From: Deltaproteobacteria bacterium
GTDB lineage: Bacteria; Desulfobacterota; Syntrophorhabdia; Syntrophorhabdales; Syntrophorhabdaceae
Reading direction: 5' to 3'
Assembly (NCBI GenBank): GCA_029553295.1
Contig: JAKPCK010000045.1
Coordinates: forward strand, 1 to 36,453
Length of the DNA: 36,453 nucleotides
Shown here: piece by piece, positions 1,114 to 9,390 of the stretch
Numbering within the stretch: position 1 is the first letter of the stretch
How the letters are laid out: every line of letters begins with the position of its first letter
Notes under the pieces: generated by a model
What the model was told of the DNA's origin: nothing
The model's input: only the letters and a program-made list of their open reading frames with translations
The model's database searches: none
Translations under genes and position numbers: made by a program

Positions 1114-1284
1114 TTAATTATTATTGCCTTTTTGAGTGATAATATCAAGAGGACTTTTTGGTGCATTTGTCATATGGGTGTAAATCAATGCAAAAAAAGG
1201 GACATTTTTCTCCTGTGTAAGTTTATTGGATATTATAAACTCCTGAAAATCAGTCAAGATGCCTTTTAAGTTTTCATTAACCAT
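1114..1284 (-). pseudogene. Integron-type tyrosine recombinase remnant with internal deletion
   Basis: A 56-codon ORF starts at ATG 1284 (or a GTG three codons earlier). Residues 1-33 resemble the SAM-like N-terminal arm of tyrosine recombinases (TDFQEFIISNKLTQEKNVPF). Residues 34-50 read IYTHMTNAPKSPLDIIT, which matches the extreme C-terminus of integron integrases, where the Tyr of MIYTHV is the nucleophile and the protein ends near SPLD. The roughly 250 residues normally between them, with the catalytic Arg, Lys and His, are absent. The simplest reading is an in-frame internal deletion. The orientation, opposite to the cassettes, is the one expected of intI. The assignment rests on short motifs and needs a profile search. 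Confidence 0.65.
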
Positions 1285-1473
1285 AAATACCACAAATTAC
1301 GATGTTCTTTTTTGGTATTTATGATCACTAAAAACGAATATTTTTCAATAATAATATCGAATTTTATTTGTTGTATTTTTTTTTAATTATTTATGTAAAC
1401 TCTAAGAAAAAAGAACTTTGTATATTGATTGCTGGGCTAATAGCTTTTAAAATAATTGATATAGGAGGCTCTA
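1285..1473. other. AT-rich intergenic stretch, possible attI/cassette-promoter region
   Basis: No gene is visible. Between an integrase remnant and a first cassette this is where attI and Pc would lie, but I cannot point to a convincing GTTRRRY core or a clear -35/-10 pair. The only firm signal is the AGGAGG ribosome site at its right end, serving the ORF at 1474. Confidence 0.35.
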
Positions 1474-1785
1474 ATGGACGTTTACGTAAATTATCCAAAT
1501 CCACACTTTACGGTCCACAGCAATGCACAATGTACCGAAATTCAGAAACATAAGAAAACAAATCAGAGAGTCGTCACCGTAGACAATTCAAATTTTGGGC
1601 AAGTCTTGTCTGACCTAGTAAACAACAAATATTCGTTTTCTTCAAATGCGTCGGAAAATGATATGTGGTTTGATATAACTTTATCTTCACCACAGCAAAA
1701 TACAGGTTTCGTATTTATTTTACAAGCTATTTTAGGAAACAGATATAAACCTTTGTCAAATGCTCCTGTTACCTTTCATTGCTGA
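1474..1785 (+). CDS. Hypothetical cassette protein, 103 aa
   Basis: Not recognised. The ATG follows a strong AGGAGG with a 5-nt spacer, which supports real translation. The protein is polar, rich in Asn, Ser and Thr, with no signal peptide, membrane segment or obvious catalytic motif. It has an aromatic C-terminal part (GFVFILQAILGNRYKPL) and ends at Cys. The stop lies 14 nt before the attC site at 1800, the usual tight packing of an integron cassette ORF. The AT-rich coding sequence differs from the flanking housekeeping genes and suggests transfer. No function is proposed. Confidence 0.65.
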   Translation: MDVYVNYPNPHFTVHSNAQCTEIQKHKKTNQRVVTVDNSNFGQVLSDLVNNKYSFSSNASENDMWFDITLSSPQQNTGFVFILQAILGNRYKPLSNAPVTFHC

Positions 1786-1799
1786 GACGGATTTGAAAG

Positions 1800-1862
1800 G
1801 ACCAACAAGGCGGTCCAGCGAATCGCCGAAAAAGCCTGCTCCCGCTGACCTTTGCGTTATGT
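1800..1862 (+). repeat. attC recombination site of cassette 1
   Basis: A 63-nt imperfect palindrome with classical attC order: R'' GACCAAC (1800-1806), 5-nt spacer, L'' GGTCCAGCG (1812-1820), variable loop, L' CGCTGACC (1843-1850), 5-nt spacer, R' GTTATGT (1856-1862). L'' pairs with L' except for one extra C, the extrahelical base typical of L''. The expected crossover is between G1856 and T1857. R'' fits RYYYAAC and R' fits GTTRRRY only loosely, but the equal 5-nt spacers and the bulge are characteristic. Confidence 0.75.
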
Positions 1863-1930
1863 GTCAAATTGTGAGCAGGAAAGAAGGTCAAATTGATTCG
1901 ACCTATTAGTAAAAGGAGGTGGTTTTATAT

Positions 1931-2017
1931 GTGATTGTTTCTTTATTCGGAGGTATAGCTACGGGAGTTGTTTATTATTTTCTATCAACTATCAAAAAAA
2001 GGAGGATACAAGTATGA
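1931..2017 (+). CDS. Possible 28-aa single-TM leader peptide
   Basis: A GTG-started ORF of 28 codons encodes a mostly hydrophobic segment (VSLFGGIATGVVYYFLSTI) followed by KKRR, as in a single-pass membrane peptide. Its TGA overlaps the ATG of the lipoprotein gene as ATGA, so translation could be coupled. GGAGG at 1915-1919 lies 11 nt before the GTG. The same ribosome site is better spaced for an ATG at 1929 that is followed at once by TGA, a start-stop element that could stall ribosomes. Expression is unproven. Confidence 0.4.
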   Translation: MIVSLFGGIATGVVYYFLSTIKKRRIQV

Positions 2018-2529
2018 AAAACAAGATGTGGAAAACAATGATAGTTTTACTTATTTCGGTTTTGCTCATTAGCTGTGCGACGATTATGGGTAAAAGTGGC
2101 CCTGAAACTTTGAATGTTCGTAGCACTCCCGAGCAAGCAAGTGTTATTATTACTGATGAAAGTGGTGTCAAGATTTTTGAGGGTAAAACCCCTACTACCT
2201 TACCACTAGAAAAAAAGAAAGGCTATTTTAGTGGTAAAAAATATACTGTAAAAATCACGAAAGATGGTTATGCTGCCCATACTCTTACTGTAGATACGAG
2301 GTTAAATGGATGGTATATAGGTGGTAACCTTCTACTTGGAGGTCTTATTGGTTAGCTTATTGTTGACCCTCTAACAGGTGCTATGTGGACTCTTGATACA
2401 AATGAAATCAATGCGACTTTAGATGCATCAAAACAAGGTGCAATGATGCAAACTAATAAAATAGGAATTGTTCTTTTACAAGATGTCCCATTATCTCTAA
2501 GAGAAAAAATGGTTAAAATCTCCCAGTAA
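2014..2529 (+). pseudogene. PEGA-like lipoprotein gene interrupted by an in-frame TAG
   Basis: The gene opens with a signal peptide and lipobox (LLIS-C21), then a beta-rich, PEGA-like region: VRSTPEQASVII, a pattern of conserved turns, and YTVKITKDGYAAHTLTVD. An AAAAGGAGG ribosome site precedes the ATG. TAG at 2353-2355 stops the product after 113 residues inside a Gly-rich hydrophobic stretch (GGNLLLGGLIG). The same frame then runs on for 57 sensible codons (LIVDPLTGAMWTLD...) to TAA at 2527. Related lipoproteins, as I recall, carry Trp at this point, so a TGG to TAG change is likely. Either the product is truncated, losing the GAMW motif, or it is made by suppression. Confidence 0.75.
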
Positions 2530-2551
2530 AAGAAGTACTTATAAAAAAATC

Positions 2552-2622
2552 ACATAACGAGGCGCTTCACTGGCAGCAATTCCGCTGCACTCCATTGCTG
2601 CCAGTGAGTTTGGTCGTTAGCA
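2552..2622 (+). repeat. attC recombination site of cassette 2
   Basis: A 71-nt palindrome with outer TAACGA (2555-2560) and TCGTTA (2614-2619), and inner 13-bp perfect arms TCACTGGCAGCAA (2567-2579) and TTGCTGCCAGTGA (2595-2607) around a 15-nt loop. R'' is ACATAAC (2552-2558) and R' is GTTAGCA (2616-2622), with crossover expected after G2616. Together with the site at 1800 it bounds a 760-nt cassette. No further attC site was seen from here to the cysteine synthase gene. Confidence 0.85.
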
Positions 2623-5597: not shown

Positions 5598-6376
5598 TGC
5601 TGCCAAGGCGTCACATCCTCGATGTCTGGGAGTTTGTAAAGGATGAAAAAGAACTCCTATCCATGGCATCTGTAACCCTTGCCATAGATGCAGTTAAGTT
5701 TATGGATACAAAGGAGAAAAAAGACCACCTTGTTGAGGCCTTGGAGCTCAATGAGTTTATCTGTTATATGTTTCCCATGAAGAGACCGGGCAACAGGTCA
5801 CTACTTTTCCATGTTATCTCAGACCTTATCGGTCTTCTCATGTATGGAGTCCCCAAAAAGACGAGGCACAGCCTCGAGATAATAGAGACCGTCAACTATT
5901 CTGAGAAGAGCATGAGGGTATACCCTGTTATAGAGGTTTGGAACTCATTAAAAGAGCACATTTACACAAAAAAACATGGCCCTATGAGTATCATAGATGG
6001 TTTTATAAAGAAGATAAAGATAGAGATGGATGTCATTGATAATTATCCCTTTGTTGAGGACCTGTTTTATGAATCAAAAAAGGCTATAAAAGATTGGCTG
6101 CCGTCCTTTTCAAGGTATTATGATAAAAAATCAAAGACCATTTGGAATGCCTATGAAAGATGGTGGGATGTATGGCACTGCAAGGCCGATAAAGACACAA
6201 TCCTGTCTGCCATGGTGGAGAGACTGTGCATACAGGCAGAGACAGAATATGATATCCGCCTTGACAGGGAGGATGTATTCTCATCTATAAAACTCGATAA
6301 AGAGGGCAACTCCAGGGAAAATAATCATTTCTCCCATTGGTATAAAGAGGGCGTAAATTTATTGTTAAAAATTTAA
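5597..6376 (+). CDS. Unrecognised 259-aa protein coupled to the DnaJ-like gene
   Basis: No family was recognised. The ATG shares its A with the TAA of the DnaJ-like gene, which is strong evidence for translational coupling. The product is charged and largely helical, with Trp- and Tyr-rich patches in its second half (TIWNAYERWWDVWHC) and no signal peptide, membrane span or nucleotide-binding motif. An early segment (ELLSMASVTLAIDAVKFMD) is moderately hydrophobic. Lying between an Hsp40 gene and groESL, it may be a partner or client-specific helper of that Hsp40; this is context only. Transcription of groES restarts from its own promoter just after it. Confidence 0.75.
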   Translation: MLPRRHILDVWEFVKDEKELLSMASVTLAIDAVKFMDTKEKKDHLVEALELNEFICYMFPMKRPGNRSLLFHVISDLIGLLMYGVPKKTRHSLEIIETVNYSEKSMRVYPVIEVWNSLKEHIYTKKHGPMSIIDGFIKKIKIEMDVIDNYPFVEDLFYESKKAIKDWLPSFSRYYDKKSKTIWNAYERWWDVWHCKADKDTILSAMVERLCIQAETEYDIRLDREDVFSSIKLDKEGNSRENNHFSHWYKEGVNLLLKI

Positions 6377-6385
6377 TTTGCTGTA

Positions 6386-6446
6386 TTGACAAAAACCCTT
6401 CTTCATCCTTATATTATTTTTAGCAATCAATTTAAATAATGGCTAA
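6386..6446 (+). promoter_or_regulatory. groESL promoter and degenerate CIRCE operator
   Basis: TTGACA (6386-6391) and TATATT (6410-6415) are 18 nt apart. Just after the -10 lies TTAGCAATC-N9-AATGGCTAA (6420-6446), with the exact 9-9-9 geometry of CIRCE, whose consensus is TTAGCACTC-N9-GAGTGCTAA. The left arm has one mismatch and the right arm three. The outer TTAGC/GCTAA pair is kept. HrcA repression of groESL is the likely meaning. No hrcA lies in the window. Confidence 0.6.
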
Positions 6447-6480
6447 CAATTAAAAAATAATTTGAAAGGAGTGTGATACG

Positions 6481-8425
<1,945 letters not shown>

Positions 8426-8428
8426 GAG

Positions 8429-8506
8429 AGACTTAAACCCTGTAAAGGGATTAGAAAAGTCTATAAGATTTAAAGAGGGGCAGAGTGGCAGGAGACCTCT
8501 CCTGCC
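8429..8506. terminator. Two hairpins between convergent groEL and arnD-like genes
   Basis: AGACTT (8429-8434) pairs with AAGTCT (8457-8462), enclosing CCCT-GTAA-AGGG. Further on, GGCAGGAG-ACCT-CTCCTGCC (8487-8506) is a perfect 8-bp stem in the last codons of the opposing gene. Neither is followed by a clear T run, so intrinsic termination is uncertain. Together they could mark the meeting point of the two transcripts. Confidence 0.35.
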
Positions 8507-9390
8507 CTTCCCCTTATAGAGCCATAGAATATCTCGCAGATAGGCAGTTCACCTCTATCTTTTATGTCCTGTGCAATATCTATAAGCCTTTCAAATATAA
8601 AACCCCTGGATATGGATTTCTGTAAAAACATCTCAAGAAACCCCCCCCATCTTTTACCCTCTAATTCTGCATGGATGGTGAGGATGTTAATATTCTTCTT
8701 AAGGGAGTCTACAAAATAACTGGATAGGGCCTCTGGGTCATTGCCCTCAATACCAACAACCTCATCAAGGGTGGGGAGGTTTGAAGGTATCTGGATTATG
8801 CGGAATACCCTGTTATCCATAACAGGAAAAAAAGGCATCACCCCCCTTGTGTCACTGGAGTAGATAAAGCCATTCTCCTGGAAGAATTTAAGGGCATGGG
8901 CATTTATCATCCAGCCCGGGGCGGCAAAGGACAGGGGCGCCCTACCTGTAATATCCCTATATATCCTAACAGATTCCTTCAGTATCTCCTCTGTGCGTTC
9001 CCTGTCAAGGTCTTTGATGTGGTCGTGCCAGTATACATGGTCGTATCCGTGTATGCCTACCTCATGACCCTCCTCGATTATTGTCCTTATTATTCCTGCA
9101 GCCCTCTTTGCTATCTCTGGGCCCCTTAGAAGTATCCCGTAAAGGAGTGTTATTATACCGTATGTCTGTAAGACACCTACCCTATTTACCTTTTTCAGAA
9201 AGCCCTTTCTTGTCCATATCCTCTTTACAGTCCTGCCTGTGTTATCCCTACCCATGGGGATAAAAAAACTTGCCTTGATATTGTATCTCTTCAAGATAGA
9301 GAGGATTTGAGGCACGCCTCTTTGCATCCCCATATGTGTATCCACATCTATCTTTATACCGATAATGCCTTTTGTATCTGAATTATTCAA
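8470..9390 (-). CDS. ArnD-like polysaccharide deacetylase/deformylase
   Basis: A 306-aa NodB-fold protein that follows the ArnD pattern closely: IDVDTHMGMQRGVPQIL (14-30), ASFFIPMGRDNTGR, HEVGIHGYDHVYWHD (metal His pair), SFAAPGWM, SSDTRGVMPFFPV, IQIPSNLPTLDEVVG, ILTIHAELEG and a final GEVSCH. ArnD removes the formyl group from formamido-arabinose on undecaprenyl phosphate, the step before lipid A modification and polymyxin resistance. The other arn genes are not beside it, so the natural substrate may differ. Its start overlaps the alcohol dehydrogenase gene by 8 nt, so it is last in an operon. A cytoplasmic-face enzyme is likely, as no signal peptide is seen. Confidence 0.75.
   Translation of the reverse strand: MNNSDTKGIIGIKIDVDTHMGMQRGVPQILSILKRYNIKASFFIPMGRDNTGRTVKRIWTRKGFLKKVNRVGVLQTYGIITLLYGILLRGPEIAKRAAGIIRTIIEEGHEVGIHGYDHVYWHDHIKDLDRERTEEILKESVRIYRDITGRAPLSFAAPGWMINAHALKFFQENGFIYSSDTRGVMPFFPVMDNRVFRIIQIPSNLPTLDEVVGIEGNDPEALSSYFVDSLKKNINILTIHAELEGKRWGGFLEMFLQKSISRGFIFERLIDIAQDIKDRGELPICEIFYGSIRGRAGEVSCHSAPL

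Follow-up and report, generated by a model that had tools for sequence, protein, structure and literature searches.

Introduction

In the sedentary chromosomal integrons of Xanthomonas, which lie at a fixed position beside ilvD, integrase activity has been lost in most strains; stop codons, frameshifts, or large deletions have disabled the integrase gene (intI), which the cassettes and attC sites outlast (PMC12444791). Clusters of attC sites lacking an integron integrase are referred to as CALINs (IntegronFinder 2.0, PMC9024848). In an early survey, nearly one-third of intI genes were pseudogenes ('pseudo-integrons'), mostly with stops and frameshifts and some with major deletions; more than one-fifth of lineages carried more than one intI, and a clade of IntI proteins about 120 aa longer than usual was described (PMC2426708). 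Experimental work has demonstrated that fitness is restored by integrase inactivation (PMC3510236), and the loss of this costly enzyme is an established process. In the open literature, Syntrophorhabdus and integrons appeared together only in passing co-mentions.

Here, we analyzed a window of 36,453 nucleotides (contig C112 of the host genome, G000), for which the Syntrophorhabdaceae are the closest named relatives. An AT-rich stretch of 1.6 kb, located between a glycosyltransferase gene and a cysteine synthase-like gene, is very probably a relict sedentary chromosomal integron. Like the Xanthomonas integrons, it occupies a fixed chromosomal position adjoining a conserved gene and its intI is inactivated, whereas it belongs to another phylum, has a different neighbor gene, retains two cassettes only, and carries fused intI ends (PMC12444791). 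As in a CALIN, two or more attC sites are present together with cassettes and a functional intI is absent; unlike in a CALIN, an integrase remnant is still recognizable, and the origin of the array is visible instead of assumed (PMC9024848). It also resembles the pseudo-integrons, among whose reported lesions are major deletions, but its intI pseudogene is an end-to-end fusion of 59 codons (PMC2426708). The array is a member of the well-documented class of integrons with decayed intI, and provides a clear case of chromosomal integron death in which attC sites and cassettes survive the integrase.

Organization of the locus

The remnant of intI (1114-1293, minus strand) adjoins the cassettes at their 5' side and has the opposite orientation, which is the standard integron layout. 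The neighbor on the integrase side, truncated where the contig ends, is a glycosyltransferase gene (GT2, Pfam PF00535; 2-1090, minus strand). The far end of the array is bordered by a cysteine synthase-like gene (PF00291; 2739-3647, minus strand). The GC content of the element was 29-38%, compared with approximately 41-48% in its surroundings. The first-pass annotation of this DNA had described a decayed integron with palindromes, ORFs, and AT-rich composition, and all of the parts that it named were found where it had placed them.

A complete integron has an attI site next to a functional intI with an IntI-specific domain; in place of such a gene, only the 59-codon fusion of the gene ends was found. 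The other features are those of a decayed integron or CALIN, namely two or more attC sites that point the same way (by our own covariance model, with a borderline second site), no intact integrase in the neighborhood, and a cassette structure recognizable in cassette 2 (8/8 bases). The remnant combines IntI homology with a lesion removing the catalytic core, as in an integron integrase pseudogene, and the position of the element is common to related genomes with a differing cassette-side flank, as in a sedentary chromosomal integron.

Between the remnant and the gene of the first cassette (ORF1) lies an AT-rich gap (1294-1473, delimited by composition), the expected place of attI and the cassette promoter. 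No attI or conserved sequence was identified in this gap, no cassette-1 start motif was found there within two mismatches, and a promoter scan returned promoter-like sites no better than those of shuffled sequences. Expression of the cassettes, if any, would start from promoters in or near this gap, upstream of ORF1.

The integrase remnant

The ORF at 1114-1293 encodes 59 aa from a GTG at 1293 and, in the same frame, 56 aa from an ATG at 1284; the latter is the 56-aa ORF that had been called integrase-like. Its residues 1-36 (1293-1186, minus strand) matched residues 1-36 of the 433-aa IntI of genome G014 with 58% identity (blastp, E 6e-10). From residue 37 onward (1185-1117, minus strand; the last ~22 codons), it matched the extreme C-terminus of IntI (IYTH....NAPKSPLD), from position 406 of 430 in G021. 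This C-terminal part also matched the IntI of G016 (blastp), and 30 of 34 nucleotides were identical to the intI tail of that genome. The N-terminal half scored 110 against a shuffle maximum of 49 and the C-terminal half 61 against 43, with none of 5000 shuffles reaching the observed score in either case. Because the stub aligns in two separate pieces to the two ends of IntI, it is one integron integrase gene without its middle, which has lost about 370-375 internal codons (approximately 1.1 kb). The remnant is more than a plain truncation, as codons 1-36 are joined directly to the final ~22. These results support both the integrase-like character of the ORF and the loss of the integrase, as the first-pass annotation had proposed.

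Integron integrases were sought in 60 relatives of the host, comprising two from its own genus, a further 34 from its family, and others more distant; in these searches, the best matches of the 59-aa ORF were a second copy in the host genome and the ends of intI genes. The stub was not recognized by Pfam, NCBIfam, or PHROGs.

The ancestor would have possessed a long IntI of approximately 430 aa with an N-terminal extension, encoded adjoining the glycosyltransferase gene, and would have captured cassettes via attI x attC recombination. A deletion in this lineage then very probably removed approximately codons 37-411 of intI, and with them the catalytic core save the C-terminal tyrosine motif, leaving the 59-codon in-frame stub as its product. 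The array would thereafter be mobilizable only via an integrase given in trans, and the cassette genes would be kept or lost on their own merits (ORF1 intact, ORF2 nonsense-mutated).

The second copy of the intI stub and glycosyltransferase gene was found on contig C16 of the host genome (positions 1-1607), which begins inside the copy. It shared 94% DNA identity with the window copy over 1,275 bp and had the same stub junction. An assembly artefact, with the true genome carrying an intact intI at this locus, would require the same misassembly twice, as the junction is identical in two copies that are 6% apart, and the reading frame is continuous across it; thus, even though the host is a fragmented metagenome assembly with contig ends falling within the duplicated region, we consider an artefact extremely unlikely and regard the deletion as real. 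The two stub copies differed by four nonsynonymous and zero synonymous codon changes, which fits an absence of purifying selection, but the number is small. The differences between the two copies lie in clusters. The pair may represent either a duplication with gene conversion or a mixture of strains, in which case C112 and C16 would carry a single locus from two strains.

attC sites

A covariance model (R1) was built from 11 attC sites, taken from plasmids and from two genomes related to the host (G021 and G018), with the window excluded; a first alignment (A1) was discarded before modelling because it contained a near copy of a window site. With a home-made attC finder based on R-box motifs and fold energy, genuine sites could not be told apart from the background, and the covariance model was used instead. 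Both of the attC sites that had been proposed for this locus were recovered with R1. attC1 (1800-1862, plus strand; R'' GACCAAC, R' GTTATGT) scored 49.3 bits in the window (E 5.5e-9) and was the top match of the whole genome. attC2 (2552-2622, plus strand; R'' ACATAAC, R' GTTAGCA), located 0.7 kb away on the same strand, scored 19.0 bits with an E value in the window of 0.045, which is borderline by itself; the next best match in the 36-kb window scored 11.6 bits.

The palindrome at 2567-2607 within attC2 is a perfect inverted repeat with a 14-bp stem. The DNA fold of this site had a z score of -4.28, and the site shared 78% identity over 67 bp with an attC on contig C124 of the host genome. 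The DNA fold of attC1 alone was as stable as that of shuffled sequences (z 0.23), and this site is recognized through sequence and structure rather than stability. A search of Rfam at gathering thresholds gave no match. Of the two outcomes named beforehand as contrary to the integron reading, attC scores below cut-off at both sites and a 56-aa ORF unlike tyrosine recombinases, neither was observed.

Gene cassettes

Cassette 1 carries ORF1 (1474-1785, plus strand), an intact gene for 103 aa. ORF1 had no Pfam family above cut-off, and a search of 395 genomes from the phylum yielded one distant relative (33% identity). The search for a start motif of cassette 1 did not reveal where this cassette begins at its 5' side.

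The known cut point of attC is G/TT. Placed by this rule, cassette 2 extends over 760 bp from the cut point of attC1 to that of attC2 (1857-2616, plus strand). At the junction within attC1, cassette 2 opens with GTTATGTG (cassette start TTATGTG), and this opening is matched by an exact complement, CACATAAC (2551-2558), at the beginning of the cassette's own attC. Five of the eight complementary bases are free of motif constraint, corresponding to a chance of about 1 in 1,000.

ORF2 (2014-2529, plus strand), the gene of cassette 2, is PEGA-domain lipoprotein-like (Pfam PF08308, E 1.6e-4, above cut-off) and runs from 2014 to 2355, then onward past one in-frame TAG (2353-2355). A relative in G004, which could be aligned across the stop (39% over 166 aa), has tryptophan at the TAG position, and ORF2 therefore carries a nonsense mutation. 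No useful homologues of the cassette genes were found on plasmids or viral contigs, and a search next to the relatives of ORF1 and ORF2 gave no attC.

The same locus in related genomes

In G015, which belongs to another genus of the same family, the glycosyltransferase gene is preceded by intI in the order seen in the window. G001, a member of the host genus, has a contig that starts with the tail of intI followed by the glycosyltransferase gene. The proposed comparison with relatives recovered the locus but not an intact copy, as the G001 match is a tail at a contig start and the G015 intI has an internal deletion of its own (approximately residues 60-346), which is out of frame and differs from that of the window. 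These matches suggest that an integron would have been present at this position before the genera diverged, and one locus in two genera has lost its integrase through different deletions. In the species-wide genome collection, intI beside the same glycosyltransferase gene was found in G015 only. The genomes do not share the cassette-side flank; after the cysteine synthase gene, G001 has other genes and no integron. The genus-mate G002 has a broken intI beside an attC.

AT-rich gaps often hold short ORFs and palindromes, and a chance assembly of unrelated small ORFs and transcription terminators could imitate an integron. Nevertheless, attC1 and attC2 have no T runs after them, and the independent tests (IntI matches, attC scores, the G015 locus, and shuffles) all agree; the matching loci in other genomes exclude chance in practice, and we regard its probability as virtually nil. 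The reading as a decayed integron is supported by the remnant, the two attC sites, the layout, and the matching locus in another genus.

In G015, DNA methyltransferase-like and HNH-like ORFs were noted, from translations read by eye, on the array side of its degraded integrase (contig C67, 9383-10814), and no recognizable attC was found in this region. The contig C41 of G001 starts with AGATGTGTATAAGAGACAG (1-19), which we take to be a Nextera adapter that was not trimmed from the public assembly.

Integrases and integrons elsewhere in the host genome

The search for a functional intI elsewhere in the genome, which the first-pass annotation had recommended, yielded none that was intact in the host assembly (97% complete), although an intact gene in a gap between its 157 contigs is possible. 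The best IntI match, on contig C124, is split into three pieces by frame changes, and the other TIGR02249 matches scored like the general tyrosine recombinases present in every control genome. Contig C124 holds a second dead integron (6003-8974), in which the frameshifted intI (7765-8974, plus strand) is accompanied on the opposite strand by a Phd/YefM-ParE/RelE toxin-antitoxin cassette (attC 6853-6909) and a class II glutamine amidotransferase cassette (attC 6003-6074). The stub and this frameshifted intI did not match by direct BLAST, and the C124 gene is nearer to other IntI proteins.

Across the whole genome, the R1 model identified three further attC sites on contigs C124 and C135. On C135 (2745-3209), a single attC (40.8 bits) follows the gene for a HicB-like antitoxin where the contig ends, and this is probably a cassette from another, broken-off array.

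If the cassettes were shuffled in trans by an integrase encoded at another genomic site or by a mobile element, the array would still be alive. attC sites are recognized by diverse IntIs, and full-length intI genes are present in G014 and G021 of the same family, but no intact intI is present in the host assembly, the other intI of the host is frameshifted, only two cassettes are left, and one of them carries the mutated ORF2. We therefore consider a live array unlikely, and the cassette array of this relict integron is almost certainly frozen.

Recurrent loss of the middle of intI

The related genomes were also surveyed using the N-terminal domain of the long IntI subgroup as a query, and the loci were then classified. 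The survey yielded approximately 25 full-length intI genes, many N-terminal remnants, and 10 genes with both ends but without the middle, including that of the window; the other nine loci belong to eight related genomes. The middle-less genes were in frame in G000, G053 (253 aa), G342 (~152 aa), G021 (~54 aa), and G016 (~50 aa), in frame with further damage in G010 and G350, and out of frame in G015 and at two loci of G402. Several of those in G053, G342, G021, G016, G010, and G350 had attC on the expected side and strand. Although 7 of 10 in frame seems to exceed one third, the share became 4 of 7, which is not significant, when three in-frame cases were omitted that were the query itself or had been found with a junction-spanning query.

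We interpret this recurrence as ordinary, neutral decay through internal deletions; the probability that selection is involved is small. The stub of the window is in frame and free of stops, and end-to-end fusions recur in frame in G053, G342, G021, and G016, and with further damage in G010 and G350, as might be expected if the 59-aa ORF encoded a small protein with a function (a mini-integrase that represses, is dominant negative, or binds attI) and its frame were under selection. This is very unlikely in view of the exclusively nonsynonymous codon changes between the stub copies, the out-of-frame matching locus in G015, the eroded SPLD motif of the G016 stub, and the in-frame share remaining after the omission. 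It is also very improbable that in-frame internal deletions, independent in several lineages (G000, G053, G342, G021, and G016, with G010 and G350 damaged), have been kept because the translated mini-integrases regulate or act as dominant negatives, rather than as neutral debris. The in-frame excess as a sign of function was set aside for ascertainment and for the same codon changes.

Together with the window, these loci suggest that standard intI searches miss remnants that could expose an anonymous attC cluster as a former integron. The usual layout is reversed in the integrons of G012, G039, and G016, whose attC sites lie downstream of intI and on the same strand.
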